Source: Bacillota bacterium | Lineage (GTDB): Bacteria; Bacillota; SHA-98; UBA4971 | DNA: 64,000 nucleotides | Direction of reading: 5' to 3' | Assembly: GCA_024653485.1 (NCBI GenBank) | Contig: JANLFY010000002.1 | Span: 124,001-188,000, forward strand | Shown here: one piece after another, positions 37,238 to 53,823 of the stretch | How positions within the stretch are numbered: the stretch's first letter is position 1 | Layout: each line of letters starts with the position of its first letter | Translations under genes and position numbers: made by a program | The notes under the pieces: model-generated | Databases searched by the model: none | What the model was told of the DNA's origin: nothing | What the model saw: the letters and a program-made list of their open reading frames with translations, nothing else

Positions 37238-37541
37238 TGGAACGGCGAGACGTCAGGCTTGCCTGGAGACCGTGTTCGGTGCGCGTGTGAGGGGGTCGGG
37301 TGACCCTTTTGGGGCCGTGCCTATGGGCGCCTATGGGCGCGCCGTGGAAGCGGTCGGACGAGACGGCGGGTAGGGTGGCACTGGGGTCCGGGGCAGGTTT
37401 GGTCCTGGACAGGCTTGGTTAGTCCGCATATGATCCGCACGTGTTCCGCGGGCGGCGCGCTTCGGCGGCAAGGCGCGCCGGTTGTAGTGCCGGATGACAC
37501 GGACGGGTGCCGAAGATGCAGCCGCACTGGAGGGAATTGCG
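37238..37541. other. Intergenic region, small repeat and hairpin
   Basis: The 304 bases carry a 10-bp tandem duplication (CTATGGGCGC twice, 37321-37340), a GC hairpin at 37453-37480, and the ribosome site GGAGGG (37529-37534) of the aldolase gene. No gene is supported. Confidence 0.5.
37453..37480 (+). terminator. GC hairpin before the KDPG aldolase gene
   Basis: CGGCGCGC and GCGCGCCG form an 8-bp perfect stem with a 12-base loop that may pair a little further. No T-run follows; it could attenuate read-through from the ABC operon. Confidence 0.35.
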
Positions 37542-38189
37542 GTGACAGAGAAAGAGCGAAATCTCCAACTGATGATCCAAACGGGCGTGGTGGCAGTCAT
37601 ACGGGCGCAGAGCGCGGAGTCGCTCATGGACGTGGTGGCGGCGCTGCGCCGGGGAGGGCTCAGGGCGGTCGAGATCACGATGACCACCCCCGACGCGATA
37701 GACGTGATACGCCAGACGAGCAGGAAGTTCGGTGACGACGTGCTCGTTGGAGTGGGCTCGGTCCTCGACCCCGAAACCGCGAGGCTCGCGATTCTCGCAG
37801 GGGCTCAGTTCGTGGTCGGTCCCGTCCTGAACAAGGACGTGATAGCCACGTGCAGGCGATACAGCAAGGTGGCAGTGCCCGGTGCCTTCACGCCCACCGA
37901 GATCCTCGCGGCCTGGGAGGCGGGGGCGGACGTTGTGAAAGTGTTCCCAGCCACCAAACTCGGACCCGCGTACCTCAAGGATGTCAAGGGACCCCTTCCG
38001 CAGGTGCTCCTCACTCCGACGGGAGGGATAGACCTCAGCAATGCTGGGGAGTTCATCAAGGCCGGGGCGTGCTTCCTCGGGGTCGGGACCGCGATGGTGG
38101 ACAAGAGCCTTGTGGCCGAAGGGAGATGGGATGAACTCGCCGAGAGGGCGAGACTGTTCCTGGACGCCGTGGCGCAAGCGCGCGTCTGA
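37542..38189 (+). CDS. eda: KDPG / KHG aldolase
   Basis: A 215-residue class I aldolase that cleaves 2-keto-3-deoxy-6-phosphogluconate to pyruvate and glyceraldehyde 3-phosphate (or 4-hydroxy-2-oxoglutarate to pyruvate and glyoxylate). Landmarks: GVVAVIRAQSAESL, the catalytic Glu in AVEITMTTPDA, the substrate loop AVPGAFTPTEI, the Schiff-base Lys in DVVKVFPA, and LTPTGGID. The GTG at 37542 follows GGAGGG by seven bases; earlier in-frame starts add a non-homologous tail. It could be the last step of sugar-acid breakdown, including uronates made by the inositol pathway further on. A KDG kinase is not adjacent. Confidence 0.92.
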   Translation: MTEKERNLQLMIQTGVVAVIRAQSAESLMDVVAALRRGGLRAVEITMTTPDAIDVIRQTSRKFGDDVLVGVGSVLDPETARLAILAGAQFVVGPVLNKDVIATCRRYSKVAVPGAFTPTEILAAWEAGADVVKVFPATKLGPAYLKDVKGPLPQVLLTPTGGIDLSNAGEFIKAGACFLGVGTAMVDKSLVAEGRWDELAERARLFLDAVAQARV

Positions 38190-38564: not shown

Positions 38565-39674
38565 ATGAGGTGGATTGGCTTGGGCCCAACAATTCGTGAC
38601 GTCGCCAGGGTGGCCGGCGTGTCCAAATCGACCGTGTCACGCGTCTTGAACGCCGACCCCAACGTCGCCGAAGAGACCAGGTGCGCGGTGTTCGCGGCGA
38701 TAAAGGAGATAGGTTACACGCGCAACGCGCTCGCGCGGGGACTGAATACGCGGAGAACGGGCACGATCGGCCTCATCATGTCGGACATTACCAACCCGTT
38801 CCACGCAGAGGTGGCGCGAGGTGTGGAGGACCTCGCCTCGGACTTCGACAGCAACGTCATCTTGTGCAATACCGACGGCAGGCCGAAGAAGGAGGCCGCC
38901 TACATAGACCTCCTCGTAGAGAAGAGGGTCGACGGGATCATCTTCACGTCCGTCAAAGCGGGCGAAAGCGATATGAGCAATCTGCGTTCGAAACGGATCC
39001 CCTTCGTGTTCGCCGGCCGCACACTGCCTGATGTAGAGGCAGACAGCGTGGTCGTGGACAATGTGCTCGGGGGGTTCCAGGCCGCGACCCATCTTGTAAG
39101 GCTCGGCCACCAGAGAGTAGCTTACCTGGCGGGTCCCTCCCACGTATCCGCCAGCGCAGACAGGTACGAAGGGTACTGCCAAGCACTCCGCCGGGCAGGC
39201 GTGGAGCTCGACCCGCAGCTCGTCGTGGAAGGGGATTTCAAGCAAGAGGGCGGGTACCGTGCGATGAGCACGCTCTTGGACCGCGCACCTGGTGTCACGG
39301 CCGTGTTCGCCGCCAACGACTACATGGCCATGGGCGCGCTCGAGGCGATCTACGAGCGTGGCTTCAGGGTGCCCGAAGACATCGCCGTGGTGGGATTCGA
39401 CGACATCCCGTTCGCCCGTCTTCATCTCGTGCAGCTTACTACGGTCGCCCAGCCCAAGTATGATATCGGCGCGATAGCCGCGCGCATGCTGTTCGAACGC
39501 ATCGAGGGGAAGGTCGGCGACGAGCAGCAACCGCGCCGTGTGGTCCTCCCTCCGCGCTTGGTGGTGCGCAGGACGTGCGGAGAGTATCACCGCCGCGAAG
39601 GCGCGGGGGAGACGGGCGGACAGTCTCGCTCCGGTGAGCTTTCGCCGGGTGAGGCGCAGACCGCGACGACGTAG
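38565..39674 (+). CDS. LacI family transcriptional regulator
   Basis: A 369-residue regulator with the N-terminal LacI helix-turn-helix (TIRDVARVAGVSKSTVSRVL, residues about 9-28), hinge helix (NALARGLNTRRTGTIGL), and a periplasmic-binding-protein-like effector domain with SDITNPFHAEVARGVED and VVGFDDIPFARL. It likely represses the inositol/sugar genes on either side until the sugar or a product binds. A 30-residue poorly conserved tail ends the protein. The ATG at 38565 is nine residues before the HTH, as usual. Confidence 0.93.
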   Translation: MRWIGLGPTIRDVARVAGVSKSTVSRVLNADPNVAEETRCAVFAAIKEIGYTRNALARGLNTRRTGTIGLIMSDITNPFHAEVARGVEDLASDFDSNVILCNTDGRPKKEAAYIDLLVEKRVDGIIFTSVKAGESDMSNLRSKRIPFVFAGRTLPDVEADSVVVDNVLGGFQAATHLVRLGHQRVAYLAGPSHVSASADRYEGYCQALRRAGVELDPQLVVEGDFKQEGGYRAMSTLLDRAPGVTAVFAANDYMAMGALEAIYERGFRVPEDIAVVGFDDIPFARLHLVQLTTVAQPKYDIGAIAARMLFERIEGKVGDEQQPRRVVLPPRLVVRRTCGEYHRREGAGETGGQSRSGELSPGEAQTATT

Positions 39675-39849: not shown

Positions 39850-41031
39850 ATGAAAGCGGTGGTTCTGTCCTGTGATTGGCAGCCTAGGCCAGGTTTCAAG
39901 CTCGGGGCGAAGGACATCGACGGAAAGCTGACATACTTGGGGAGCAAGGTGTGGCGGAACCCCAGACTTCAAGTCGTGGAGAAGGACGTCCCGAAGCCTG
40001 GCCCCACCGAGGTCTTGGTGAAGGTGAAGGCCTGCGGTATCTGCGGAAGCGACGTCCACATGGCTCAGGCGGATGAAGAGGGCTACATTTTCTATCCGGG
40101 TCTCACCGCGTTCCCGTGTACGCTGGGGCACGAGTTCTCCGGCGTGGTGGTCGAGGCGGGGAAGAACGCCATAAACAAGCGGACGCGCAAACCCTTCGAG
40201 CCCGGCGAGGCGGTCTGCTCCGAGGAGATGCTCTGGTGTGGTTCGTGCCGCCCGTGCGCTGACGGGTATCCAAACCAGTGCGAGGCCCTTCAAGAGCTCG
40301 GGTTCAGCTGCGACGGAGCGTTCGCTGAGTACATCACGGTGGATGCGAGGTACGTTTGGAGCATCGAGGAGCTGAGAGAGAGGTACGCCGGCGACGACGT
40401 ATTCGTGGCGGGGGCCCTTGTAGAGCCCACATCTGTGGCGTATACGGCCGTCATCGACGTCACGGGCGGGATCCGGCCCGGCGACAACGTCGTGATATGC
40501 GGGGGCGGGCCCATCGGACTCGCGGCTGTGGCGATAATGAAGCGCGCGGGCGCGGCTAGGGTCATACTTTCGGAGCCGTCGAAGCGCCGCGCGGAGCTAG
40601 GTAAGAAGATGGGCGCAGACTACGTAATCAACCCTGTCGAGCAGGACTTCACCGAAGCGGTGCTGGAGCTCACCCGTGGCATGGGCGCGAACCTTTACCT
40701 CGAGGCCACAGGCCTTCCGGCCGCCGTATGGCCAGGCATCGAGCAGGCGATATGGGAAGGGAAGACGATAGAGGCCACGGTGTCCATCGTAGCGCGCGCT
40801 GACGCCAAGATCCCGGTGACCGGAGAGGTCTTCCAGGTGAGGCGGGCGCGCATAGTAGGATCCCAGGGTCATTCGGGTCATGGGACGTTCCCGAGGGTCA
40901 TAAGCTCGATCGCGTCGGGCATGGATGTCCTGCCGCTCGTTACCAAGAGGATCTCCATGGACGAGGTGCCGGAGAACATCATAAGGCTTCAGACGGATAG
41001 GAGCGAATGCAAGATAACCGCTCTCATCTAG
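39850..41031 (+). CDS. iolM: scyllo-Inosose 3-dehydrogenase-like zinc dehydrogenase (IolM)
   Basis: The 393-residue protein is a medium-chain zinc dehydrogenase with landmarks I recognise from Thermotoga maritima IolM: the long N-terminal lead ending GKLTYLGSKVW, CGICGSDVHMAQADEEGYI, LGHEFSGVVVEAG, SEEMLWCGSCRPCADGYPN, and SQGHSGHGTFPRVI near the end. IolM oxidises scyllo-inosose (2-keto-myo-inositol) at C3 to a diketo-inositol with NAD. Catalytic zinc Cys and His are in CGICGSD and GHEF. The ATG at 39850 follows GGAGG by nine bases. Homologues of the next two pathway enzymes (IolN, IolO) follow at 42404 and 43503, which supports the call strongly. Confidence 0.88.
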   Translation: MKAVVLSCDWQPRPGFKLGAKDIDGKLTYLGSKVWRNPRLQVVEKDVPKPGPTEVLVKVKACGICGSDVHMAQADEEGYIFYPGLTAFPCTLGHEFSGVVVEAGKNAINKRTRKPFEPGEAVCSEEMLWCGSCRPCADGYPNQCEALQELGFSCDGAFAEYITVDARYVWSIEELRERYAGDDVFVAGALVEPTSVAYTAVIDVTGGIRPGDNVVICGGGPIGLAAVAIMKRAGAARVILSEPSKRRAELGKKMGADYVINPVEQDFTEAVLELTRGMGANLYLEATGLPAAVWPGIEQAIWEGKTIEATVSIVARADAKIPVTGEVFQVRRARIVGSQGHSGHGTFPRVISSIASGMDVLPLVTKRISMDEVPENIIRLQTDRSECKITALI

Positions 41032-41223
41032 CTCTCGTCTGGCCGGCCTGGCTCCGCGGTCCTCGCGGCACGTCTTTGCGGCGCGTCCTCGTGCCGGTCC
41101 AGAGGAGGCGAGGAGGCGCCACATGACGCTGGGAGTGCGGACGGTCCGTGGCGGGCAGTACGTGGCGGGCGATCGGGGCGGACGGTCGCACCAACCGAGA
41201 CTTGGGGTTCGGGAGGGTTTTCG

Positions 41224-42252
41224 ATGGAGGACAAGACCATGCTGGCAGCGGTCTTCGAAGGCGACGGCAAGCTCGCCGTCAGAGAGGTTCCAGTGCCGAC
41301 GATTCGCAAGGATGACGAGGTCCTTCTCAGAGTCGACGCGGCGAGCATCTGCGGCACCGACGTGCACATCCTGGAGGTTCCGCCGGGCCACCCGGCCACG
41401 CCCGGCTCCATCCTCGGCCACGAATACGTTGGGACCGTCCTCGAGGTGGGCACGGGAGTCGCGGGCTTGCGCGAAGGCGACAGGGTCGTGGTCGATCCCA
41501 ACCTCACGTGCGGCAGGTGCCGCTATTGCCGCATGGGAATGCCTAACATGTGTGAGAACATGACCACGCTCGGAATCTTCATGGATGGCGGGTTCGCCAC
41601 TTACAACGTAGCGCCCGCGCAGGCCCTCCACAAGATCTCGAAAGCCGTTCCGCCCGACGCGGCGGTGTTTGCGGAGCCCCTCTCTTGCGTGGTCAACGGC
41701 ACCGAGAAAGTGCGGCTGCACCCTGGCGAGTCTGTGGTGGTGCTTGGAGCGGGGCCGATCGGGCTTCTGTTCATACAGGTATTCCGGGCTGCTGGCGCGG
41801 GCAGGATCATCGTTTCCGAAGTGGCTGAGGTGAGAGCTGAGGCTGCCAAGAGAAGCGGCGCCGACCTCGTAATAGATCCGCGCAGCACCGACGTCAAGGC
41901 GAGGGTAATGGCCGAGACAGGTATCGGCGCGGACGTCGTGGTGGATGCCGTGGGCGCTCTGCTGCCGGCGGCGCTGGATCTCGTGAGGCGCGGAGGCAAG
42001 GTGCTCCTCTTTGGGATGAACCAGTCTGTGGCGCCCCCGGTGGCCCAGTACTACATCACTCGCCACGAGGTCGCCGTGCTCGGCACCTACATAGCGAAGT
42101 ACACGTTCCCGCCCGCCATCAAAGTCCTCGAGAGCGGGGCCATCAATACTGACGCCCTCATAACGCATCGGGTGGGCGTCGCCAACATAATCGAGGGCTT
42201 CGAGGCGATGAGGTCCGGGAAGGCCGTGAAGGTAGTCGTTACGCCCGATTAG
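41224..42252 (+). CDS. Zinc-dependent dehydrogenase, second in inositol cluster
   Basis: A 342-residue medium-chain dehydrogenase with AASICGTDVHILEVPPG, LGHEYVG, structural zinc lobe CGRCRYCRMGMPNMC, and cofactor motif GAGPIGLLF. It belongs to the sorbitol/threonine-dehydrogenase branch and is distinct from the IolM-like gene before it. Placed between IolM and IolN homologues, it may perform the first inositol oxidation or reduce a later keto acid such as tagaturonate. The ATG at 41224 follows GGGAGGG by seven bases. Exact substrate unknown. Confidence 0.88.
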   Translation: MEDKTMLAAVFEGDGKLAVREVPVPTIRKDDEVLLRVDAASICGTDVHILEVPPGHPATPGSILGHEYVGTVLEVGTGVAGLREGDRVVVDPNLTCGRCRYCRMGMPNMCENMTTLGIFMDGGFATYNVAPAQALHKISKAVPPDAAVFAEPLSCVVNGTEKVRLHPGESVVVLGAGPIGLLFIQVFRAAGAGRIIVSEVAEVRAEAAKRSGADLVIDPRSTDVKARVMAETGIGADVVVDAVGALLPAALDLVRRGGKVLLFGMNQSVAPPVAQYYITRHEVAVLGTYIAKYTFPPAIKVLESGAINTDALITHRVGVANIIEGFEAMRSGKAVKVVVTPD

Positions 42253-42403
42253 AGAGGCTGTCCCGGAGCCCGCAACAACAGGAAAGGCAGGCGGACGAGC
42301 GGCGCGAGTCTCTGCTCTCGCCAGTCTCCGCTCTGAGCTTGCTTGGGCCCGGGGTGAGGGCCCAGGTGAGCGTGGGCAATTTGCGAAGGAAGGAGCGTCT
42401 CAT

Positions 42404-43375
42404 ATGGGCAAATGGGAACTGCCTCCGAAGAAGGGGCACATGGACGAACCGTCGGGTGTGTACCTGCAGAACATGACGATGAGCCAGATCCAGGAGCGTC
42501 TGAAGAAAGACGACATCCTCATCGTTCCCGTGGGATCCACTGAAAACCACGGGCCCAACGCGTGCATCGGCGAGGATACCTTCCTCGTGACGAGGATGGC
42601 CGAGGCCGTCGCTCTCAGGACCGGCTGCACCGTGGCTCAGCCGGTCTGGTATGGTTCCCACCCGTTCCACCACATGGGTATGCCCGGCACCGTGATAGTG
42701 CCAGAGGAGATATTCTGTGGCCTCCTCAAGTCGATGATGGCCGGGTTCTGGAACATGGGGTTCCGCAAGATGATACTCCTCAACGGGCACGGCCAAGAGT
42801 ACGTCATCCCCACGGCGATACACCAGTTCGGGAAGACGTACCAGGTGCCGGCGGTCATAATCAACGTCAACTGGTACCACGCCGTGCAGGACCATTTCAG
42901 GCTGAAAGGACAGGGCGGCGTGTACGAGACTCCTTTCATCCACGCGGACGAGGTGGAGACGTCATGGAGCCTCGCGCTCTTCCCCGAGCTCATGGATCAA
43001 TCGAAGGCGGTGGACACGACGCCCAGGGGCTACCTGCCCGAAGGGCACGTGGACAAGGCGGGCAACCTGCTTCACAGGCCGATAGCCTGGTACGGGCACA
43101 TAGGGTGCGGCCCCGCGGAGTACGCAGCCACGCCCGAAGGGTGCGTAGGCAAGTCCACTCTCGCCGACCCGGAGAAGGCGAAGCCGGGCGTCGAAGCCTT
43201 CCTCGACTATATGGTGAAGCTGCACGATGACATCCTCAAGGCGTTCCCACCCGGGAAACTCCCGCCCATCGAGGAGATGAGCCAGCGGCGCCGCGAGGAC
43301 ATCGAATCCGTCCTGAAAGGACCTCTTGCGCCGGGCGGGCGGAGCATCTACTCCCTGGTGTATCCGCCGGCGTGA
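42404..43375 (+). CDS. iolN: Creatininase-family hydrolase, 3-dehydro-scyllo-inosose hydrolase-like (IolN)
   Basis: The 323-residue protein has the creatininase fold: VPVGSTENHGPNACIGEDTFL with metal-binding Glu, His and Asp, HPFHHMGMPGTV, and LLNGHGQEYVIP. In T. maritima a creatininase-family enzyme, IolN, opens the diketo-inositol ring to 5-keto-L-gluconate. The placement after an IolM homologue and before an IolO homologue makes this assignment much stronger than a generic creatininase. The ATG at 42404 follows GGAAGGAG. No amide substrate gene is nearby. Confidence 0.85.
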   Translation: MGKWELPPKKGHMDEPSGVYLQNMTMSQIQERLKKDDILIVPVGSTENHGPNACIGEDTFLVTRMAEAVALRTGCTVAQPVWYGSHPFHHMGMPGTVIVPEEIFCGLLKSMMAGFWNMGFRKMILLNGHGQEYVIPTAIHQFGKTYQVPAVIINVNWYHAVQDHFRLKGQGGVYETPFIHADEVETSWSLALFPELMDQSKAVDTTPRGYLPEGHVDKAGNLLHRPIAWYGHIGCGPAEYAATPEGCVGKSTLADPEKAKPGVEAFLDYMVKLHDDILKAFPPGKLPPIEEMSQRRREDIESVLKGPLAPGGRSIYSLVYPPA

Positions 43376-43502
43376 GCGTTGCGAAGAGCGGCGCCGCAAG
43401 CGACACGGGTGGTGGGCCGCGTGGCCTAGGGGCAAGCGGCCCTCCGGTCTTGGGCCGTCGTGGCCGCGCGAACTACCGATGAACGACCGAGGTGACGTCG
43501 GA

Positions 43503-44345
43503 ATGAAGCTGAGCATCGTGGTGAACGCGACGCCGAAGGCTACGCCGCTCGCCGCCGACATTCCGCTGGACGAGGCGCTAGGCCTGGCGGCAGAGGTGGG
43601 GTTCAGTGGCGTCGAGCTGGCGATAGGAGATCCCAAGAGCCTCGACGTCGCGTCACTGAAGCGTCTTCTCGCCGCCCACAGCCTGGAGGTCCCGGCGATC
43701 GGGACGGGGGCCGCATACGCCGAGGGATTCAGCCTGTCCCACCCGGACGCCGCACGGCGCGAGGGCGCCGTGTCCAGGCTGAAAGCCCACGTGGATCTGG
43801 CGGAGCAGCTTGGCGCGCTTGTGATAGTGGGGCTCATCCGCGGCCGCGCCCGCGACGGCCTTGGCGAGGAGCGTGCCACGGAGTGCGCATTGTCGGGGAT
43901 GCGGGAGGTGGCCGAGTACGCCGAAGTAAGAGGTGTGAGGCTGCTCCTAGAGCCCATGAACCGTTTCGAGACGGACATCTGGAACACCGTTGAGGACGCG
44001 CTCGCGGTGGCTCGGGCCTCCGGCGAAAATGTGGGCCTGCTCGTGGACACTTTCCACATGAACATCGAGGAACCGTCGATCACGCGCTCGCTTCGAGAAG
44101 CGGCACCCAGGATCTGGCACGTCCACGTCGCGGACAGCAACCGCTGGGCACCGGGTTACGGACATCTGGACTTCCGCGAGATCGTGGGCACGCTGCGCGA
44201 AACGGGTTACGAAAGCTACCTTTCCGCGGAAATCCTGCACAAGCCGGACATCCGCTCGGCGTATGCCCGAACTCGCGAGCACCTGGCGCCGCTCCTATGG
44301 ACCCCGGGACCCGCCGCTGGGTGGGCGACGCCAGGTAATCGGTAG
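43503..44345 (+). CDS. iolO: 5-Keto-L-gluconate epimerase-like (IolO)
   Basis: A 280-residue TIM-barrel epimerase. It carries landmarks I recall from T. maritima IolO: MKLSIVVNA at the start, IGTGAAYAEGFSLSHPD, VIVGLIRGR, LLEPMNRFETDIWNT, VDTFHMNIEEPSI, and HVADSNRWAPGYGHLDFR. IolO converts 5-keto-L-gluconate to D-tagaturonate, which then enters uronate breakdown. Metal ligands Glu (EPMNR), Asp and His (DTFH), His (HVHVADS) and Glu (SAEIL) are in place. The ATG at 43503 follows GAGGTGA by eight bases; an earlier ATG at 43479 is possible. The paralogue at 24701 is less like IolO. Confidence 0.87.
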   Translation: MKLSIVVNATPKATPLAADIPLDEALGLAAEVGFSGVELAIGDPKSLDVASLKRLLAAHSLEVPAIGTGAAYAEGFSLSHPDAARREGAVSRLKAHVDLAEQLGALVIVGLIRGRARDGLGEERATECALSGMREVAEYAEVRGVRLLLEPMNRFETDIWNTVEDALAVARASGENVGLLVDTFHMNIEEPSITRSLREAAPRIWHVHVADSNRWAPGYGHLDFREIVGTLRETGYESYLSAEILHKPDIRSAYARTREHLAPLLWTPGPAAGWATPGNR

Positions 44346-44412: not shown

Positions 44413-45462
44413 ATGTCTGGGAGGTTTGGATACTCCATCGAAGGTTACGAGTTTCGGGCGCAGGACTTCTTGCCTGCGAGGGTCTGCGACGACATCGTTG
44501 ACGTTAGGGTGAATGAGCCTGGGCTTGTAAGAGAGATAGCACAGAGCCGCAAGAGACGGCGCACGCTCACGCGCGATGGCAAGTTGACGATCCTGGCGAC
44601 CGACCATCCCGCGCGCATGGTGACGAAGGTCGGCGATGACCCTGTGGCGATCGGCGACCGGTACGGCCTGCTTTCGCGCCTAGCCAGGGTGCTGACCGAC
44701 CCCAGATTCGATGGGGTGATGGCAACGCCAGACATAATCGAGGAACTGCTCATCCTCGACTACCTCGTGCAGGAGGCGGGGGGACCCTCCTTCCTGGATG
44801 AAAAGGTCATCCTCGGGTGCATGAACCGAGGCGGGCTCGCGGGAGTCGTGTTCGAGATGGATGACACGATGACCGCCTACACCGCGGATTCCATCGCCGA
44901 AATGGGGCTCGACGGCGCGAAGATAATGTTCAGGTTGGATCCGGAGAACCCGGATTCCGGCAAGACGATCATGTATTGCGTGGAAGCCATCAACGAGCTG
45001 GTAGACTTGGGGATCCCGGTGTTCCTCGAGGCCCTTTTCATGCGGAGGGCCGACGGGAAACTCAAGACCCTCAAAGAGGCGGAAGCTCTCATCAAGATAG
45101 TGGGCGTCGCGGCGGGGCTCGGGAAGTCCAGCGCGTACACGTGGCTGAAGATCCCCTACTGCGAAGGATATGACAAAGTCGCAAGGGCCACGACTTGTCC
45201 CATACTCATGTTGGGTGGCGAGTCGACGGGCGATCCCACAGGCATACTCGAGGAGTTCGCCGCGGGAATGCGCGCTGGGGCCACGGTCAGGGGCGCGCTC
45301 GTGGGAAGGAACGTGACGTTTCCCGGCAAGGACGATCCAAGGGCCGTGGCTGTGGCTGTGAGCGAGATAGTCCACAGGGGGCTGGACGCGGAGGCAGCCA
45401 CGCGTGTGCTCATGGAGACGCGCGGAAAGGACATGGACGCGATAACCCGCTACTTCAGCTGA
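44413..45462 (+). CDS. Cgl0159-like (beta/alpha)8 aldolase
   Basis: The 349-residue protein belongs to the DhnA/class I aldolase-like barrels grouped with Corynebacterium Cgl0159, a protein encoded in inositol gene clusters. Motifs include LTILATDHPARMV, GCMNRGGLAGVVFEMDD, DGAKIMFRLDP (the Lys here is a candidate Schiff-base residue), FLEALFMRRADGK and LMLGGESTGDP. A keto-sugar or keto-acid phosphate aldolase role is likely. The ATG at 44413 follows GGAGG by eight bases. It precedes a phosphofructokinase-family gene, giving a kinase/aldolase pair downstream of the inositol enzymes. The product has not been fixed by sequence. Confidence 0.72.
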   Translation: MSGRFGYSIEGYEFRAQDFLPARVCDDIVDVRVNEPGLVREIAQSRKRRRTLTRDGKLTILATDHPARMVTKVGDDPVAIGDRYGLLSRLARVLTDPRFDGVMATPDIIEELLILDYLVQEAGGPSFLDEKVILGCMNRGGLAGVVFEMDDTMTAYTADSIAEMGLDGAKIMFRLDPENPDSGKTIMYCVEAINELVDLGIPVFLEALFMRRADGKLKTLKEAEALIKIVGVAAGLGKSSAYTWLKIPYCEGYDKVARATTCPILMLGGESTGDPTGILEEFAAGMRAGATVRGALVGRNVTFPGKDDPRAVAVAVSEIVHRGLDAEAATRVLMETRGKDMDAITRYFS

Positions 45463-45582
45463 GTGGTGCGACCGGCTGACAGGCTCGCGGCTCGCTCGCT
45501 GTTCGGCACAGGGCCCGCCAGGGGTGAGCCCGCCCGGGCCAGGGCGCAGCGGTCAGCGGTTTGAAACGGGAGGATGATTGGC

Positions 45583-46788
45583 ATGCCGCTGAAGGGCAAT
45601 GCAGTTGTCGGACAATCCGGCGGGCCGACCGCGGTGATAAACGCGAGTCTAGCGGGCGTGATCGAGGAGGCTCTGGAACACGCTGAGATTCAGGGCGTGT
45701 ACGGTGGGGTGCACGGCGTTCTGGGGATGCTCAGGGAGGACTTCATCGATCTCGGCAAGCAGGATCCCTCCGTTATCCGGAGGCTCAGAGCAACACCTTC
45801 CGCGGCCCTAGGATCGTGCCGCCACAAAGTGTCCCCGGAGGATTGCGCGAGGCTTGTGGAGATCTTCAAGAAGTACGATATCCGCTACTTCTTCTACATC
45901 GGCGGGAACGATTCCGCCGACACCTCCAACAAGGTGAGCAAGGCGGCCAAAGAGGCAGGCTATGAGCTTGCCGTTGTGGCGGTTCCCAAGACGATAGACA
46001 ACGACCTCGCGGTGACGGACCACTCTCCGGGCTACGGGAGCGTCGCGCGATGGGTCGCGACCGCGGTCAGGGATGCCGGGCTGGATACCGAAGCGATCGG
46101 GGTCGTGGACAACGTCAAGGTGATCGAGGTCATGGGCAGGAACGCGGGTTGGATCACCGCTGCCACCGTGCTTGCGAGGGACCACGAAGACGCGGCTCCG
46201 CACCTCGTCTACCTGCCGGAACGGCCGTTCAACCCCGAGAAATTCCTCGCGGACGTGAAGGCCGTGTACGACAGGCTCGGGCACTGTGTGGTGACGGTGT
46301 GCGAAGGGCTGAAAGACGAGGCAGGGAGGTACGTCACGGCCTCATCGCGGTCCATCGACACGGACAAGTTCGGCCACAAGCAGCTCGGCGGGGTCGGAGA
46401 GTTCCTCTGCGACCTCGTGGCGACGAACCTCAAGATCAAGGCGAGGTGTGACAAGCCCGGGACGATCCAGAGGGTATCTGCTGCGCTGGCCTCGCCGGTG
46501 GACGTCGCGGAAGCCTATGAGGTCGGCCGATACGCCGTGAGGTGCGCGATCCAGGGGGTGCTGGACAAGATGGTGGTCATTACGCGGAAGCCTGGACCCA
46601 CGTATGAGGTGGATTTCGGGACCTGCGACTTGGCCATCGTCGCAAACGCAGAGAAGCACGTGCCGAGCGAGTTCATAAGCGAAGCAGGTAACGACGTTAC
46701 CGAGGCGTTCATCGAGTACGCGTTGCCTCTCATCGGCGGGCCTCTCGAGCCGTACGCGAGGCTGAAGCGTGTTGCAGTGAGGGCTTGA
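45583..46788 (+). CDS. Phosphofructokinase family, diphosphate-dependent type
   Basis: The 401-residue protein is a PFK-family kinase. Two diagnostic positions point to diphosphate as phosphoryl donor: GGNDS at 107-111, where ATP enzymes have Gly at residue 110, and Lys136 in PKTIDND. Other motifs are GQSGGPTAVINASLAG near the N-terminus and VMGRNAGW. PPi-PFK reversibly phosphorylates fructose 6-phosphate, and relatives accept sedoheptulose 7-phosphate. The ATG at 45583 follows GGGAGG; ATG 45574 is an alternative. Its location right after an aldolase in an inositol cluster makes a dedicated ketose phosphate substrate possible. Confidence 0.88.
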   Translation: MPLKGNAVVGQSGGPTAVINASLAGVIEEALEHAEIQGVYGGVHGVLGMLREDFIDLGKQDPSVIRRLRATPSAALGSCRHKVSPEDCARLVEIFKKYDIRYFFYIGGNDSADTSNKVSKAAKEAGYELAVVAVPKTIDNDLAVTDHSPGYGSVARWVATAVRDAGLDTEAIGVVDNVKVIEVMGRNAGWITAATVLARDHEDAAPHLVYLPERPFNPEKFLADVKAVYDRLGHCVVTVCEGLKDEAGRYVTASSRSIDTDKFGHKQLGGVGEFLCDLVATNLKIKARCDKPGTIQRVSAALASPVDVAEAYEVGRYAVRCAIQGVLDKMVVITRKPGPTYEVDFGTCDLAIVANAEKHVPSEFISEAGNDVTEAFIEYALPLIGGPLEPYARLKRVAVRA

Positions 46789-47149: not shown

Positions 47150-48115
47150 ATGAAAAGGCTTGTCGGGTTGATCTTGGTGTTGTGTTGCTCTCTTGTCTTG
47201 GGCGGGTTCGGTTCCGCGGCCCTGGCCGCTGACGAGATGACGTTCTACGTCATTGCCCATGCCGGTCCGGGCGATCCATTCTGGGCGGTGGTGCAGCGTG
47301 GCGTGCAAGACGCCGGGAAGGCCCTCGGTGTCAGAGCGATCTTCCAGGGGCCGGCCGGGTACAACGTTCCCGAGCAGGTCGCCATGTTCAGAGCGGCCGT
47401 GGAGGCCAAGGCAAGCGGGATCGCCACCACGATAAGCGACGCGAGGGCGTGGGCCGAGCCGATCAAAGAGGCCAGGGGGCGCGGCATTCCTGTAGTCGCC
47501 ATCAACTGTAAAGAGCCCGCGGAGCTTCGGGGGACGATTCCCTACATGGCATACATAGGCATGGACGAGTACGAAGCGGGCAAGATGGCGGCGCGTCAGA
47601 TCCTGCCGAAGTTGAAAAAAGGGGCGCACGCGGTCGTTGCGATCCATCAAGCGGGCCACGTTGGCCTGGAGGCCCGCGCGAAGGGCATCAGTGAGGTGAT
47701 CACCCAAGAGCTTGGCGGAAAAGTCGACAAACTAGACATAACGCAAGACGCCACACAGGCCATCGGTATCCTGCGCAGCTACCTGAAAGCCAACCCAGAT
47801 ACGGCGGCCATCTTCACTCTCGGCCCGCTGGGGGCGATTCCGACGATCAAGATGATCAGGGACGACGGTCTGAAGGGGAAGGTCCTCATGGTGTCCTTCG
47901 ACCTCGACCCCACCGTCATCCAGGCCATCTCGGAGGGGATCTGTGAGGGGACCGTGGACCAGCAGCAGTACCTCCAGGGTTACATGGCTGTAGTGGAGCT
48001 CTATCTGTGCGCCAAGTTCAAGCTGAACCCCGCTGATTACGACACGGGCAGGGGCTTTGTCACGGCGGAGACCGCAAGCGCCGTCGCGTCCCTAGTGAAG
48101 CAGGGCTATAGATGA
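47150..48115 (+). CDS. Sugar ABC substrate-binding protein (Frc-type)
   Basis: A 321-residue exported Peripla_BP_4 binding protein, signal peptide about 1-26 (ending AALAAD). The core reads YVIAHAGPGDPFWAVVQRGV and YIGMDEYEAGKMAA, as in sugar binders of the FrcB/RbsB kind. It is separated from its permease by a perfect 14-bp hairpin, and the three-gene order binding protein, permease, ATPase matches the fructose-type FrcBCA arrangement. The ATG at 47150 follows GGAGGG. An inositol or monosaccharide ligand is likely. Confidence 0.9.
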   Translation: MKRLVGLILVLCCSLVLGGFGSAALAADEMTFYVIAHAGPGDPFWAVVQRGVQDAGKALGVRAIFQGPAGYNVPEQVAMFRAAVEAKASGIATTISDARAWAEPIKEARGRGIPVVAINCKEPAELRGTIPYMAYIGMDEYEAGKMAARQILPKLKKGAHAVVAIHQAGHVGLEARAKGISEVITQELGGKVDKLDITQDATQAIGILRSYLKANPDTAAIFTLGPLGAIPTIKMIRDDGLKGKVLMVSFDLDPTVIQAISEGICEGTVDQQQYLQGYMAVVELYLCAKFKLNPADYDTGRGFVTAETASAVASLVKQGYR

Positions 48116-48136
48116 GCTGCGCGATAGGCCTCGCAA

Positions 48137-48168
48137 GAGATGCGGGGAGGGGCTCCTCCCCGCATCTC
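48137..48168 (+). terminator. Perfect 14-bp hairpin between binding protein and permease
   Basis: GAGATGCGGGGAGG, a four-base loop (GGCT) and the exact reverse complement form a very stable stem 22 bases after the stop codon. It has no T-run. It should shield the upstream mRNA and reduce expression of the permease and ATPase relative to the binding protein. Confidence 0.65.
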
Positions 48169-48185
48169 GCCAAGGAGGGGTGGGC

Positions 48186-49148
48186 ATGCGGATGAAGGCG
48201 CTGCTGGGCCACCGCGAAGTCGGAGTGGCCGTGGCACTTGTCGCGGTATACGCGGTCTTCATATCCATGAAGAAGGAGTTTCTGAGCGCGGGCACGTTTG
48301 GGGACATCGTCACGGTGGCGGCCGAGCTCGGCACCGTGGCGGTGGGAATCAGCTTTCTCATGATAGCCGGGGAGATGGATCTATCGGTCGGGTCGAATTT
48401 CGCCCTCACAGGCATGCTCTTGGCTATGCTCGTCACGCGCTTGTCGTGGAGTCCGTACCTTGCCTTTGCCGTCGTCCTGGCTTGTTCTGCGGGAATCGGC
48501 GCGCTGAACGGTCTCGTGACGCTGAGCGCAAGGATACCGTCGTTCATAACGACCCTTGGCGCAATGATGTTCTGGAGAGGGGTGGCGTTGTACCTGACGC
48601 AGGGCTGGCCGATCAGTGTGTTCGCCGACGTTCCACTCCTGAGATGGCTGGGAGGAGCCAAGGTATATCATACGTTCCATATCTCCGCTGCGTGGTGGCT
48701 CGTGATAGGCGCCGTATTCTGGGTGATCCTGCAGAAGACGGCCTACGGGAACTGGGTGTTCGCGACAGGAGGCAAGAGAGCTGCAGCCCGAGCTCTCGGC
48801 GTTCCCGACATTAGAGTCAAACTCGTCAATTTCATCCTCGCGGGCGTAATGGCTGGTCTTGCAGGGTGTTTTCAGCTGGGCAGGATGGGATCGATGTCTC
48901 CAGTGTGGGGACAGGACCTGCCGCTCGAAGCCATCGCAGCGGCGGTCGTGGGCGGGAACTCCCTTACGGGGGGCGTGGGCAGCATCCTCGGGGCCATGTT
49001 GGGCGCGGTCACGATGGCGTCCATCAGGATCGGCCTCGTCATGGTGGGAGCGCCGGCTTACTGGTACATGGCGTTCGTCGGCTTCATCGTCGTGGCTGCG
49101 GTGGCGCTCAACGTGAAGCTGGGGGAGGTGATATCGTGGCACAGGTGA
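48186..49148 (+). CDS. Sugar ABC permease (Frc/Rbs-type)
   Basis: A 320-residue membrane permease with about ten spans and the motifs AGEMDLSVGSNFALTGM, ARIPSFITTLGAMMF, GGKRAAARALGVPDI and VVGGNSLTGGVGS. The ATG at 48186 has GGAGGGG seven bases before it. The stop codon lies inside the start of the ATPase gene (13 bases of overlap). Confidence 0.92.
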   Translation: MRMKALLGHREVGVAVALVAVYAVFISMKKEFLSAGTFGDIVTVAAELGTVAVGISFLMIAGEMDLSVGSNFALTGMLLAMLVTRLSWSPYLAFAVVLACSAGIGALNGLVTLSARIPSFITTLGAMMFWRGVALYLTQGWPISVFADVPLLRWLGGAKVYHTFHISAAWWLVIGAVFWVILQKTAYGNWVFATGGKRAAARALGVPDIRVKLVNFILAGVMAGLAGCFQLGRMGSMSPVWGQDLPLEAIAAAVVGGNSLTGGVGSILGAMLGAVTMASIRIGLVMVGAPAYWYMAFVGFIVVAAVALNVKLGEVISWHR

Positions 49149-50011
49149 CGTCGGCTTCGGCAGAGTCGAGCGTACCCGACCTGGTAGGCCCGGCCGAGTC
49201 GGGTGCAGTGCCGCTCATGCAAGGGGTCGGCCTTTGCAAGCGCTTCGGCAAAGTCACGGCTTTGGAAAGCGTCGACATAGCCATACGGCGTGGCGAGGTC
49301 ACGGGGCTGGTAGGTGACAACGGCGCCGGTAAGTCCACGCTCATCAAGATCCTTACGGGGGTGTACCGACCGGACGAAGGGGAGCTCCGCTTCGAGGGCC
49401 GGAAGGTGGAATTCGCGTCCCCGAAGGACGCCAGGAAGCTCGGCATCGAGACGGTGTACCAGGATCTTGCGCTCATCGAGAACATGAGTATAGCGAGGAA
49501 CTTCTTCCTGGGCGCGGAGCCTCAGCGCAGAGTGGGGATTCTCCGTCTGCTCGACGCCAAGAGCATGCGGGCTGTCACGGAAGAGGCCCTAAGGGATATC
49601 GGCATCCGCGTCAGGTCTGCGAACGACGAGGTCTCAGTTCTCTCTGGCGGGGAGCGCCAGGCGATAGCCATCGGGAGGACCATGCATTTCGGCGGCAAGC
49701 TACTCATCCTGGACGAGCCGACGTCCGCTCTTTCCGTCCACGAAACCAACAAGGTCCTGTCTTACATCGACGAGGCTCGCAAGCGGGGGCTGGCTGTGAT
49801 ATTCATCACTCACAACCTGTATCACGTGTACCCCGTGGCAGATCGGATAGTCGTGCTAGAGCATGGGAGAAAGGTTGGGGATTTCGGGAAGGACGAGATC
49901 TCCGTGGAGGAGCTCGTCCAGATCGTTTCCTTCGGAGCGCGGGGGATGACACCGGCAAAGCGACAGCACGAAGAAAGGCAGAATGACGGCGGCGACGACA
50001 GCGGGCGCTAG
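49136..50011 (+). CDS. Sugar ABC ATPase, single-domain (FrcA-like)
   Basis: A 291-residue ATPase with one nucleotide-binding domain, unlike the two-domain RbsA-type at 34670. Walker A GDNGAGKST, signature LSGGERQAIAIGR, Walker B LLILDEPTSAL and ITHNL in the switch are present. FrcA-type importers use two copies of such a protein. The GTG start at 49136 follows GGGAGG by seven bases and overlaps the permease end. Confidence 0.9.
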   Translation: MAQVTSASAESSVPDLVGPAESGAVPLMQGVGLCKRFGKVTALESVDIAIRRGEVTGLVGDNGAGKSTLIKILTGVYRPDEGELRFEGRKVEFASPKDARKLGIETVYQDLALIENMSIARNFFLGAEPQRRVGILRLLDAKSMRAVTEEALRDIGIRVRSANDEVSVLSGGERQAIAIGRTMHFGGKLLILDEPTSALSVHETNKVLSYIDEARKRGLAVIFITHNLYHVYPVADRIVVLEHGRKVGDFGKDEISVEELVQIVSFGARGMTPAKRQHEERQNDGGDDSGR

Positions 50012-50073
50012 AGCGGCGCTGGAGCGACGCTGGAGCAATGCAGCGACGATGGGGAATGGGAGGCGCTCGGACG

Positions 50074-51369
50074 ATGCCGGGAATGGAGAGTTTGAAGGCT
50101 AGAGCAAGAGAGCTACTGAAGGGGTTCAAAGGGGATAGGTACGCGTTCGGCCTCGGGGTCATCGACAAGGTAGGCGAGTTCGCTTCCGAGTTCGGGAGGA
50201 GCGCTCTCGTGGTGGCGAACCGCGCCGACTGGTTCAAGCACGTGGTGGATCCGGTGATGGAATCGCTCGCCAAGAGGGGAGTGCGTCTCTCTGGCGACCG
50301 GATCGTCCCGGACGCCGCACCCAACGCTCCAAGGGAGGATGTGTACCGCATCGCCACATACGTGCTTCAGTTCAAACCGGACTGCCTCATTGCGGTGGGA
50401 GGAGGCAGCACCATCGACGCTGTCAAGGCGGCGAACGTGCTCGCAACGCTCGGAGGATACGAGCCGGAGATCGACCCGTATTTCGGAACTGGGCAGGTTA
50501 GCGCAGCGCTCGCCAAGACGGGCAAGAGGCTACTACCCATGGTGGCGGTTCAGAGCGCTGCGAGTTCTGGAGCGCATCTCACAAAGTACTCCAACGTGAC
50601 CGACCCAGTGGCCGGCCAGAAGAAGCTCATCGTGGATGAGGCGATAGTGCCGTCACGCGCAGTCTTCGACTATGCGGTCACCAAGACCGTGCCCAAGGGA
50701 ATGACGCTTGACGGGGCTTTCGACGGGATAGCCCACTGCCTCGAGGTGTTCTTCGGGATAGGCCTGCAAAAGTATGACCTGGCGAGGGAGATAGCCGAGG
50801 TCGGCATCGAGCTTGCGGTGGCCAACATGGAGAAGGTCATCGAGGACCCCGAGAACGAGGAGGCTCGCGAGGCGCTCGGGCTCGCCACGGACTTGGGCGG
50901 GTACGCCATCATGGTGGGAGGCACGAACGGTGCTCACCTCACGAGCTTCTCGCTGGTGGACATAGCGAGCCACGGGCGTGCGTGCGCCGTGATGAACCCC
51001 TACTACACCGTGTTCTTCGCCCCGGCTGTGGAAGATCAGCTTCGCGTGGTTGGCGAGATATACAGGAAGTATGGGTACATCGCTGCTGATCTCGACAGGC
51101 TGGACGGGCGCGACCTGGGCGTGGCAGTCGCGAAGGGAATGGTGAGCCTCAGCAAGAAGGTTGGTTTCCCGACGACGCTCGCGGAGATCGCGGGGTTCAC
51201 GGACGAGCACATCGAGCGAGCCATGGCCGCCGCCAAGGATCCGCAACTCGACATGAAGCTGAAGAACATGCCGGTGTCGCTTTCGGCGTCGCTCGTCGAA
51301 GAGTACATGAGGCCGATTCTCCTTGCTGCCAAGACAGGGGATTTCGGCCTGATCAAGAACATGAAGTAG
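50074..51369 (+). CDS. Iron-containing alcohol dehydrogenase family
   Basis: A 431-residue group III dehydrogenase with AVGGGSTIDAVKAANV, the metal-binding Asp and His in LDGAFDGIAHCLE, and further His in TNGAHLTS and IASHGRACAVMNP. It is longer than the similar gene at 14748. The substrate is unknown; after the Frc-type importer, it may oxidise a sugar alcohol or reduce a keto sugar. Start choice is uncertain: ATG 50074 follows GGGAGG, but ATG 50056 and 50083 are in frame. Confidence 0.83.
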   Translation: MPGMESLKARARELLKGFKGDRYAFGLGVIDKVGEFASEFGRSALVVANRADWFKHVVDPVMESLAKRGVRLSGDRIVPDAAPNAPREDVYRIATYVLQFKPDCLIAVGGGSTIDAVKAANVLATLGGYEPEIDPYFGTGQVSAALAKTGKRLLPMVAVQSAASSGAHLTKYSNVTDPVAGQKKLIVDEAIVPSRAVFDYAVTKTVPKGMTLDGAFDGIAHCLEVFFGIGLQKYDLAREIAEVGIELAVANMEKVIEDPENEEAREALGLATDLGGYAIMVGGTNGAHLTSFSLVDIASHGRACAVMNPYYTVFFAPAVEDQLRVVGEIYRKYGYIAADLDRLDGRDLGVAVAKGMVSLSKKVGFPTTLAEIAGFTDEHIERAMAAAKDPQLDMKLKNMPVSLSASLVEEYMRPILLAAKTGDFGLIKNMK

Positions 51370-51460
51370 GGGACGCAGAAGCGCGCTCAATGCGCAGCGA
51401 GGCGCGTAGTTGGAGCAACATGGGCCGAGTTTGAGCGTTCAGGATGGGCGGTGCTTCGAG

Positions 51461-52873
51461 ATGGCGAAGTTTTCGATGGTGTTCGGAGCGGAGTCGATCG
51501 ACGTTGAGCTTCCAGCTGAAACGGTTTGCCTATCCATGTCGGAGCCTGGGCCGCTTGGGGATCCGTCGCGGGCTATCAAGGAGACCCTCGCGAGGCCTAT
51601 AGGCTCGCCGAGCCTTGATGAGATCGTGCGGCGCAAGCGCAAGGAACGGCCTGAGGCGACCGCCGCCGTGGTCATCTCGGATAACACGAGGCCCGTGCCG
51701 TACCGGGGCGAGGGCGGCATCCTCGCGCCCGTCGTGGACACGCTCATTGAGGCTGGGATACGGCCAGACCGGATCGCGGTGATAGCGGCTACGGGCACCC
51801 ACAGGGTGCTCTCCCGCGACGAGCTCGAGAGGATGATCGACCGGTCCGTCCTTGCTCGCGGGGTCAGGATCATCTGCCACGACTGCCGGGATCGGGCGAG
51901 CCTCGCGAGCTTGGGCACCACGTCGCGCGGGACTCGTGTGCTCATCAACAAGACCTATCTGGAATCCGACGTGAAGATCCTGACGGGGCTCGTGGAAAGC
52001 CATTTCATGGCGGGGACGTCGGGAGGACGCAAGTCCGTTTGCCCCGGCCTCGTCGGCGAGGAGAGCACGTACGTCTTTCACGGGCCGGCGTTTCTATCAT
52101 CGCCCAACGCGCGCGATCTCGTCCTCGAAGGGAACCCCTGCCATGAGGAATCCCTCGAAGTCGCGAGGATGGCAGGGGTGGACTTCATTATCAACGTCAC
52201 CTTGAATAGCAAGTTCGAGGTGACCGGCATCTATGCGGGAGACCTCGAGGAGGCGCACGTTGCTGCCACGAGGAAACTTGCGGAATACGTGAGCATCCCG
52301 ATAGACAGGGAGTACGACATCGTCGTGACTCACGCGGGCTTCGTGGGGATCAACCACTATCAGGCCGCGAAGGCCGCGGTAGTGGCCATACCCGTGCTCA
52401 AGCAGGGCGGGAGGCTCGTCATGGGAGCGCTCAACGTGGACGCAGACCCTGTCGGAAGCGCCACTTACAGGACGGTCTTGCACCTCTTGGCGCTGCATGG
52501 GCCGGAGGCGTACATGCGCCTCATTACGAGCTCCGACTGGAGATTCGTGCCCGACCAGTGGCAGGTGCAGATGTGGGCGAAGGTATTTGCCAAGATCCCA
52601 ATGGCGAACTTCACATACTGCGCGCCGCACATCACACCCAAAGATGCGGCCATCCTGCCGGGGCGTGACGGCAACTTGCTCCTGCCTCCCGAGAGGCGGT
52701 ACTCGCGCTCGCTTGCGGATTTGGCGCGCATGGTCGAGCTCGCCGTGGGCGAGGCGGTGGAGGAGTACAGGGCAAGGTTCGACGGTCAGAAGAGGGAGGG
52801 CGTCAGCCGGACCAGTCCCACCATAGCCTACCTAAAGGACGGACCCTACGGCATCCCTGTGCGCAGCGTGTGA
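51461..52873 (+). CDS. larA: LarA-family nickel-dependent racemase/epimerase
   Basis: The 470-residue protein has the LarA (DUF2088) motifs: SDNTRPVPY, ATGTHR with His114, and GLVESHFMAGTSGGRKSVCPG with His181 and the cofactor-binding Lys191. The spacing of the last two (10 residues) equals that of His174 and Lys184 in lactate racemase, and His114 is placed like His108. LarA uses a nickel pincer cofactor (NPN) to racemise 2-hydroxy acids; relatives include malate racemases and sugar-acid epimerases. The larB, larC and larE cofactor genes are not in this window. With sugar-acid pathways around it, an aldonate epimerase role is an alternative to lactate racemisation. The ATG at 51461 is chosen from the family start. 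Confidence 0.85.
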   Translation: MAKFSMVFGAESIDVELPAETVCLSMSEPGPLGDPSRAIKETLARPIGSPSLDEIVRRKRKERPEATAAVVISDNTRPVPYRGEGGILAPVVDTLIEAGIRPDRIAVIAATGTHRVLSRDELERMIDRSVLARGVRIICHDCRDRASLASLGTTSRGTRVLINKTYLESDVKILTGLVESHFMAGTSGGRKSVCPGLVGEESTYVFHGPAFLSSPNARDLVLEGNPCHEESLEVARMAGVDFIINVTLNSKFEVTGIYAGDLEEAHVAATRKLAEYVSIPIDREYDIVVTHAGFVGINHYQAAKAAVVAIPVLKQGGRLVMGALNVDADPVGSATYRTVLHLLALHGPEAYMRLITSSDWRFVPDQWQVQMWAKVFAKIPMANFTYCAPHITPKDAAILPGRDGNLLLPPERRYSRSLADLARMVELAVGEAVEEYRARFDGQKREGVSRTSPTIAYLKDGPYGIPVRSV

Positions 52874-52998: not shown

Positions 52999-53823
52999 TC
53001 AGAAGAACCTCTCGATCACCTCGGCAATCGCGCACTCCTCGTTCGATTTCGACACGAAGCCCGCGTGTTCTTTGAGTCCTGGAGCCGCGTTCGCGACCGC
53101 CACGCCCAGACCTGCAGTCTGGATGAGAGACAGATCGTTAGGTCCGTCTCCTACGGCCACGACTTCTCTGGGATCGATCCCGAGGTGCCTGCAGAGAACG
53201 AGAAGAGCTGCGCCTTTGGAGACGCCGGGCGGCAACACCTCGAGGTACGTAGGCTCCGACTTCGTGATGGACACCCTCGGAAGTCTGGCGTGTATGGCGC
53301 GGCGCAGGCCTTCCAGCACGTAGTCATCCCCGATGATGAGGATCTTAGTGGGTCTCTCGCGGCGAGGCGTCTGTTCGAGGAAGCGCGCGAGGTCGCCCAC
53401 TTCCGCCCATCGGATGCCGTCCTTCGCTGCGTGAGCGAGCAAGGCTTCGCTCGCGCGCCGCACGTACACGCCACCGCTCAAGTGAAGCGCGGGGTGAACG
53501 TCGAACGAGGAAGCGAGCTTGAGCACGTAGGCCGCGGCTTGCCTCGAAAGACACCTTTCGAAAACGACCTCGTCGAGGGACAGGTCCACGACCTTGGCTC
53601 CGTTGTATAGAATCGCCGGTACGTTCGTCTCGAGGGCCCTCGCGTAAGGTCGCACCGAGTCTTCGTTGCGACCTGTGGCGAACGTGAACAGCGCTCCGGA
53701 CTCCGCAAGCCGCCTTATCGCTTTCGCGTTTTCCTCGGGTACCCTTTGCTGGGAATCCACCAGGGTTCCGTCTATATCAGTGACAAGAAGCCTATACCTC
53801 AAGCTATGCTGCCCCCCAGGCAT
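52999..53823 (-). CDS. Cof-type HAD phosphatase
   Basis: A 274-residue HAD superfamily hydrolase of the Cof type, with nucleophile motif VTDIDGTLVDS, the FATGRN loop, Lys in GVSKGAALLVL, and VAVGDGPNDLSLIQ. It dephosphorylates small sugar phosphates or similar compounds in the cytoplasm. It is encoded opposite to the carbohydrate genes on either side. Confidence 0.92.
   Translation of the reverse strand: MPGGQHSLRYRLLVTDIDGTLVDSQQRVPEENAKAIRRLAESGALFTFATGRNEDSVRPYARALETNVPAILYNGAKVVDLSLDEVVFERCLSRQAAAYVLKLASSFDVHPALHLSGGVYVRRASEALLAHAAKDGIRWAEVGDLARFLEQTPRRERPTKILIIGDDYVLEGLRRAIHARLPRVSITKSEPTYLEVLPPGVSKGAALLVLCRHLGIDPREVVAVGDGPNDLSLIQTAGLGVAVANAAPGLKEHAGFVSKSNEECAIAEVIERFF

Follow-up and report, generated by a model that had tools for sequence, protein, structure and literature searches.

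Where does a Thermotoga-type inositol route end in a genome that lacks the Thermotoga exit enzymes UxaE and UxuA? This question is raised by a gene cluster in a 64,000-nucleotide stretch of a Bacillota bacterium (contig JANLFY010000002.1, positions 124,001 to 188,000; assembly GCA_024653485.1). The whole stretch is hereafter called the window; it corresponds to G000:C2:124001-188000, G000 being the window's own genome (3.0 Mb, 98.9% complete). The cluster runs in the order LacI regulator, IolM, ADH2 (a second zinc dehydrogenase), IolN, IolO, Cgl0159-family aldolase, phosphofructokinase (PFK) homologue and sugar importer. We lean towards reading it as a hybrid inositol pathway with a Thermotoga-like top and a glycolysis-like bottom. 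For the wider proposal we see an even chance: an undescribed pathway, widespread in bacteria and archaea, in which IolM, IolN and IolO are joined by a PFK-type ketohexuronate 1-kinase and Cgl0159 to give dihydroxyacetone phosphate (DHAP) and tartronate semialdehyde, with a zinc dehydrogenase in place of IolG in many lineages.

The three genes of the upper half were found on the + strand, where the first-pass annotation had placed them. IolM (39850-41031), a zinc/NAD dehydrogenase for the 2-keto-inositol (inosose) step, scored 522.8 bits against NCBIfam NF041097 (curated cut-off 450) and was 69% identical over 394 columns to the zinc dehydrogenase of PDB entry 3ip1, which we take to be T. maritima TM0412. 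The grouping of 3ip1 with Thermotogae in the IolM tree fits this assumption. The same tree, which the first-pass annotation had suggested as a check, placed the window protein with 3ip1, Thermotogae and Lokiarchaeota in a 33-row clade (Shimodaira-Hasegawa-like approximate likelihood ratio test, SH-aLRT, 99). An AAGGAGG-like site is present 5' of IolM at ~39835. IolN (42404-43375), a creatininase-fold hydrolase (Pfam Creatininase) that would open the diketo-inositol ring, reached 540.6 bits against NF041098 (cut-off 245). IolO (43503-44345), the 5-keto-L-gluconate/D-tagaturonate epimerase, scored 292.3 bits against NF041099, slightly below the cut-off of 300, and its top PDB match by far was 2zvr (TM0416; E 1e-61, 45% identity). 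Its open reading frame (ORF) was called from 43326 and the start was moved to the ATG at 43503; the preferred start sites of IolM and Cgl0159 are 39850 and 44413. The upper pathway is already known, and the window's cluster is a further member of it.

The NF041098 model is broad, as it also accepts an IolN paralogue from a different gene context. This second hydrolase of the same genome (G000:C23:14381-15340; L029:10189-11247) was 61% identical to IolN and scored 549 bits against the IolN model. It is clustered with genes for a DUF1537-type kinase, PdxA, a GntP permease, an Ldh_2 dehydrogenase, a cupin, a CoA-transferase and TctA/TctC, and with neither IolM nor IolO. As an equivalog, the NCBIfam model for IolN seems to be drawn too broadly.

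The distribution of the cluster was investigated by scanning an IolN alignment over the named genomes, which yielded 346 encoding stretches. From these, 80 loci were retained, and operon partners were searched across the loci by tblastn with the window proteins as queries. IolN loci were present in Bacillota metagenome-assembled genomes, Thermotogota, Armatimonadetes, Chloroflexota, Planctomycetota, Aerophobetes, Bathyarchaeota, Lokiarchaeota and others. The IolM/IolN route is not confined to Thermotoga, and because its loci span many phyla, archaea included, the Bacillota occurrence is one of many and not surprising in itself. The genome had been described as Bacillota-like, and the closest named relatives of the host carrying the IolM, IolN and IolO operon are indeed Bacillota metagenome-assembled genomes. 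The order IolM-ADH2-IolN-IolO was kept in same-genus genomes and in more distant ones, so that the arrangement is not due to chance.

The exits from tagaturonate were sought with family models, on which all genome-wide absences in G000 are based. No UxaE match was obtained in G000 and G001-G005, with T. maritima positive as control, or in the five genomes reached through the Cgl0159/PFK loci L069, L072, L084, L064 and L101; it was present in Thermotogota and Aerophobetes genomes in the same search. UxuA mannonate dehydratase (matches in the positive-control genomes) and the altronate dehydratase family PF04295 (controls positive) were likewise missing from G000; the same-genus genome G002 has one PF04295 gene. 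With UxaE, UxuA and altronate dehydratase absent, tagaturonate is consequently left without a known exit in G000. The IolB/KduI family (PF04962) was not found in G000 or in the same-genus genomes G002, G004 and G005. The best IolD match in G000 had 21.6 bits against a cut-off of 715, and none exceeded the cut-off in G002, G004 or G005; matches in relatives were weak and far below the cut-off, which makes this search uninformative on a canonical route in G013. The statement that the cluster differs from the canonical Bacillus route was thus borne out. By these families the Thermotoga exit, the altronate exit of the type found in Luteolibacter LG18 and the route through 2-deoxy-5-keto-gluconate (DKG) are unavailable; further dehydratase families (enolase-superfamily, IlvD-type) were not searched. 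The sequence establishes the identity of IolM, IolN and IolO, the conserved operon and the missing UxaE, UxuA, PF04295, IolB and IolD equivalog.

One alternative keeps a Thermotoga- or LG18-type end, in which tagaturonate is reduced, dehydrated to 2-keto-3-deoxygluconate (KDG), phosphorylated and split by the 2-keto-3-deoxy-6-phosphogluconate (KDPG) aldolase encoded upstream, with the iron-containing alcohol dehydrogenase (FeADH) of the operon possibly as reductase and its LarA homologue as C2 epimerase. The upstream Eda homologue (37494-38189) is over the TIGR01182 cut-off with 185.7 bits, FeADH and LarA lie inside the operon, a more distant relative (L036) has Eda, PfkB and mannitol-dehydrogenase-family genes after IolO, and LG18 takes tagaturonate to KDG (PMC12632266). 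Nevertheless, we regard this ending as unlikely, since the dehydratases and UxaE are absent from G000, PFK and Cgl0159 would be left without a role and the same-genus loci that were searched showed no Eda next to the operon, for which reason Eda was rejected as a pathway member. LguH of LG18 was considered as a precedent for PFK being a KDG kinase and was also rejected.

Instead, the operon continues directly 3' of IolO with two genes outside the account of the first-pass annotation, a Cgl0159-family aldolase followed by the PFK homologue. The class I aldolase (44413-45462, + strand; PF22649, 259.5 bits) is homologous to 3fok. The lysine of its WLKIP motif aligned with the MJ0400 lysine, and the lysine of WxKxP was invariant in 15 homologues; from the family it is presumably the Schiff-base lysine. 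We propose tagaturonate 1-phosphate as the putative substrate. The PFK-family protein (45574-46788, + strand; PRK14072, 511 bits) is of the pyrophosphate (PPi) type by motif and is a candidate ketohexuronate C1 kinase. Alignment with 3hno and 3k2q showed that the PPi-type motifs GGNDS and PKTIDND and the catalytic positions are kept. The binding site for the 6-phosphate of fructose 6-phosphate is changed. There, the operon PFK shares with its operon-linked relatives a distinct motif, ARxDKPGTxQR, with T at the position of H249 and N, T, K or P at that of R162 (E. coli PFK numbering); the substitutions in the operon PFK itself include R162->N and H249->T.

The pair is not restricted to the window. 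Cgl0159 and PFK stand beside IolN/IolO in Bacillota (L046, L047, L049), Armatimonadetes (L069, L072), Anaerolineales (L084) and Njordarchaeum (L101); Cgl0159 occurs there without PFK in one armatimonadetal locus (L094) and PFK without Cgl0159 in three ANGP1 loci (L064, L070, L071), whose PFK copies carry GGNGS. On the IolN tree the Cgl0159 label needs 9 changes and the PFK label 11, so the former does not go back to one inheritance event. The two genes stay neighbours even outside the IolN operon. These observations bear on the possibility that the kinase has an ordinary PPi-dependent activity on fructose 6-phosphate and lies in the operon by chance, with an unrelated role for Cgl0159. Among solved structures, the PPi-PFKs 3hno and 3k2q are nearest (~300 bits) and the PPi-type motifs are retained, but G000 already holds two canonical PFKs (366 and 351 bits) besides this third one, the substrate-phosphate site carries the conserved ARxDKPGTxQR, which differs from the sequence of the PPi-PFKs, and the pair accompanies IolN/IolO across phyla. 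We therefore hold a chance location to be improbable.

In two genomes, G003 and G013, the pair adjoins an IolB-family isomerase (TIGR04378 over the cut-off) and not IolM/N/O. There, the two enzymes may take the parts of IolJ and IolC with DKG as substrate, or may act on a different isomerised uronate. This context favors the proposal that they also close a canonical IolE/IolD/IolB route in the window's genome, but G000, G002, G004 and G005 keep the pair in the IolMNO operon and have no IolB family and no IolD over the cut-off. As DKG then has no source, Cgl0159 and PFK are not the end of a canonical route here, and this explanation, too, has little probability. The context in G003 and G013 supports 5-ketohexonates as the substrate class, without fixing the exact substrate.

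Further arrangements of related genes were observed. In Thermotogaceae (L102:1034-7624 and the equivalent in L097), a TIM-barrel-Cgl0159 fusion, an ADP-dependent PFK and a transketolase-like gene lie upstream of IolM-IolG-IolN. A Pseudothermotoga locus (L085:1883-7742) has PFK, a LarA-like gene, mannonate oxidoreductase, UxaE and DeoR divergent from IolM; this PFK has GGEDS plus an insertion, and the best model of the LarA-like gene is a putative hexonate epimerase, below the cut-off. A PFK-like remnant (L034:9474-9854, 54% identity) lies 3' of IolO in a same-class genome in which ORF calling found no intact copy, possibly the decay of a lower branch.

The hybrid pathway that we favor would proceed as follows. 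Inositol would be oxidized to 2-keto-myo-inositol by ADH2 instead of IolG, the product would be oxidized again by IolM, ring opening by IolN would give 5-keto-L-gluconate, and IolO would epimerize this to D-tagaturonate. In doing so IolO would set the C3 configuration common to the ketoses fructose and tagatose that DHAP aldolases generally need. The PFK homologue would then phosphorylate the C1 hydroxyl beside the keto group, with the C6 carboxylate standing in for the 6-phosphate of fructose 6-phosphate, and Cgl0159 would cleave the product into DHAP and tartronate semialdehyde. The latter would be converted to glycerate, directly or via hydroxypyruvate, and enter through glycerate kinase. 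The substrates of PFK and Cgl0159 in this lower half are predicted from genome content and synteny. We infer these, like the substrate of ADH2, the phosphate donor and the enzyme that would reduce tartronate semialdehyde here. The first-pass annotation had seen in the cluster a reproduction of the non-phosphorylating Thermotoga route. Both parts of that description can apply only to the upper half, IolM, IolN and IolO; they are not supported for the lower half, where UxaE and UxuA are missing and the operon continues with Cgl0159 and a PFK-like kinase.

The neighbors of the pair in other genomes are consistent with the predicted C3 product. A hydroxypyruvate isomerase gene was found directly 3' of PFK in L064, L070 and L072; in L070 it scored 365.6 bits against TIGR03234 (cut-off 353.45). 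L064 also encodes tartronate semialdehyde reductase (401.7 bits against TIGR01505, cut-off 340.75), and a glyoxylate/hydroxypyruvate reductase-like gene lies directly 5' of Cgl0159-PFK in L101. Enzymes of these kinds would be expected of a route in which an aldolase releases tartronate semialdehyde. The candidates for the reduction in G000 are FeADH and two D-2-hydroxyacid dehydrogenase homologues (window 20115-21029; G000:C2 ~121.5 kb), with a hydroxypyruvate isomerase-like gene at G000:C6 as a further candidate for C3 handling. G000 also has a gene of the glycerate kinase family (300 bits).

Several observations weigh against the hybrid pathway. No tartronate semialdehyde reductase over the cut-off was found in G000, and the hydroxypyruvate isomerase gene of L072 is disrupted by a frameshift. 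No Cgl0159 was found in the locus stretches of the three ANGP1 loci. The phosphate-site changes of PFK vary, with N, T, K or P at the R162 position among relatives. To judge from its context in G003 and G013, the pair may have more than a single 5-ketohexonate as substrate. By locus, the exclusion between UxaE and Cgl0159 is not significant alone (13 versus 10 loci, both in 0; p 0.2). Finally, FeADH and LarA have no explained role in the pathway.

The first oxidation is probably performed by ADH2 (41224-42252, + strand), a medium-chain zinc dehydrogenase (Pfam ADH_N/ADH_zinc_N) that reached no equivalog model. IolG was not found in the window's cluster, where ADH2 takes its place; the rest of the genome was not searched for it. 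The slot between IolM and IolN is occupied by ADH2 here and by IolG in Thermotogae. In a set of 92 IolN loci, with ADH2 counted at >=40% identity (at least 40%), ADH2 was near IolN in 29 and IolG in 24, and no locus had both (Fisher p 2e-5, loci treated as independent). On the IolN tree this corresponds to ~4 switches, that is, few independent events, with too few pairs for an independent-pairs test. Our proposal of ADH2 as a putative inositol 2-dehydrogenase is based on its holding the slot of IolG and never co-occurring with it. A 57% identical paralogue of ADH2 lies at G000:C6 ~28-31 kb (L202:7288-11631), side by side with the hydroxypyruvate isomerase-like gene. A LacI regulator and a gene for an E1 dehydrogenase lie there too, and the group may be a second cluster for a cyclitol or sugar acid.

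The remaining genes of the operon are all on the + strand. The LacI-family protein (38565-39674; Pfam LacI and Peripla_BP), whose gene is directly 5' of IolM in same-genus loci, is the probable local repressor. A predicted CUT2-type ATP-binding cassette (ABC) importer is encoded by a sugar-binding protein gene (47150-48115; best PDB matches periplasmic sugar-binding proteins), kept 3' of PFK within the genus, a permease-like ORF (48180-49148), assigned by sequence and by its position between the other two, and an ATPase ORF with a Walker-type sequence (48866-50011; true start probably ~49.15 kb), which clusters with ATPases from other IolN loci. FeADH (50038-51369; PF00465) is conserved in the genus and reached no equivalog; its assignment as a tartronate semialdehyde reductase is speculative. 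It is followed by the LarA-like nickel hydroxyacid racemase/epimerase homologue (51410-52873; PF09861, 164.8 bits, below the NF033504 cut-off). The LacI regulator, the extra dehydrogenase and the two sugar importers noted at first are all present, but within the genus conservation with the operon is limited to the operon importer (47150-50011) and does not include the upstream importer or its Eda gene. Rfam and tRNA searches of the window gave no match.

The importer also bears on the identity of the substrate, which could be a cyclitol other than myo-inositol, or else an inositol phosphate or related hexonate, with entry into the route at inosose or 5-keto-L-gluconate. It differs in type from the SBP_bac_6 importers of many IolG-containing loci, the IolN paralogue of G000 works in another gene context, and inositol does not support growth of T. 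maritima itself (PMC3750489). We consider a substrate other than myo-inositol doubtful, given the 69% identity of IolM to the T. maritima enzyme, yet more plausible than the alternatives above. At the operon end, a Cof-type HAD phosphatase is encoded on the - strand (52999-53823); in several IolN loci, similar phosphatases adjoin IolG and importers of the SBP_bac_6 type, which suggests inositol-phosphate use.

If the hybrid pathway is correct, the Thermotoga inositol route has a second, carbon-conserving ending that yields two C3 units per inositol, with no loss of CO2 before pyruvate. A PFK subgroup and the Cgl0159 family would gain assigned functions where automated annotation would label them ordinary glycolytic or uncharacterised, and the label 'diphosphate--fructose-6-phosphate phosphotransferase' may mislead in such operons. 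The distribution further suggests that the IolM/IolN route would reach far beyond Thermotoga, into Asgard and Bathyarchaeota genomes. Literature searches on the proposed lower half, on Cgl0159 and on inositol use by Lokiarchaeota gave nothing relevant, most subscription papers being outside their reach. The lower half predicted from the genomes is a new variant, and its combination with this upper half was not found described in the literature searched.

Among the known systems, the closest is the inositol pathway of T. maritima, which reportedly consists of IolG-IolM-IolN-IolO (TM0412-TM0416) and is said to have been described by Rodionova and co-workers in 2013. That pathway is cited in PMC12632266 and PMC5931981. 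The window shares with it IolM, IolN and IolO in one cluster and the same predicted intermediates up to tagaturonate, whereas it has ADH2 for IolG, no UxaE/UxuA, and Cgl0159 and a PFK-like kinase 3' of IolO. The regulator is of the LacI family, in contrast to the ROK-family IolR of T. maritima (PMC3750489). The L-glucose pathway of Luteolibacter LG18 likewise has an IolO-like C-4 epimerase that converts 5-keto-L-gluconate to D-tagaturonate and a PPi-using kinase, but reduction, dehydration, KDG kinase and KDPG aldolase follow, and IolM/IolN are not reported there (PMC12632266). With IolBCDEGJ of B. subtilis the window shares the predicted lower logic, in which the CH2OH beside the keto group of a 5-ketohexonate is phosphorylated before a DHAP-yielding aldolase acts; unlike in B. 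subtilis, the IolB family is absent and no IolD exceeds the cut-off. The B. subtilis kinase IolC is of the PfkB type and that of the window of the PFK family, and B. subtilis obtains malonate semialdehyde where the proposed route would give tartronate semialdehyde. In sulfoglycolysis of the Embden-Meyerhof-Parnas type (sulfo-EMP), an analogue of fructose 6-phosphate with an anionic group at C6 receives a phosphate at C1 and is cleaved to DHAP and a C3 acid aldehyde. The scheme of C1 phosphorylation and DHAP release would be the same in the window, with a carboxylate instead of a sulfonate and an unrelated set of genes.

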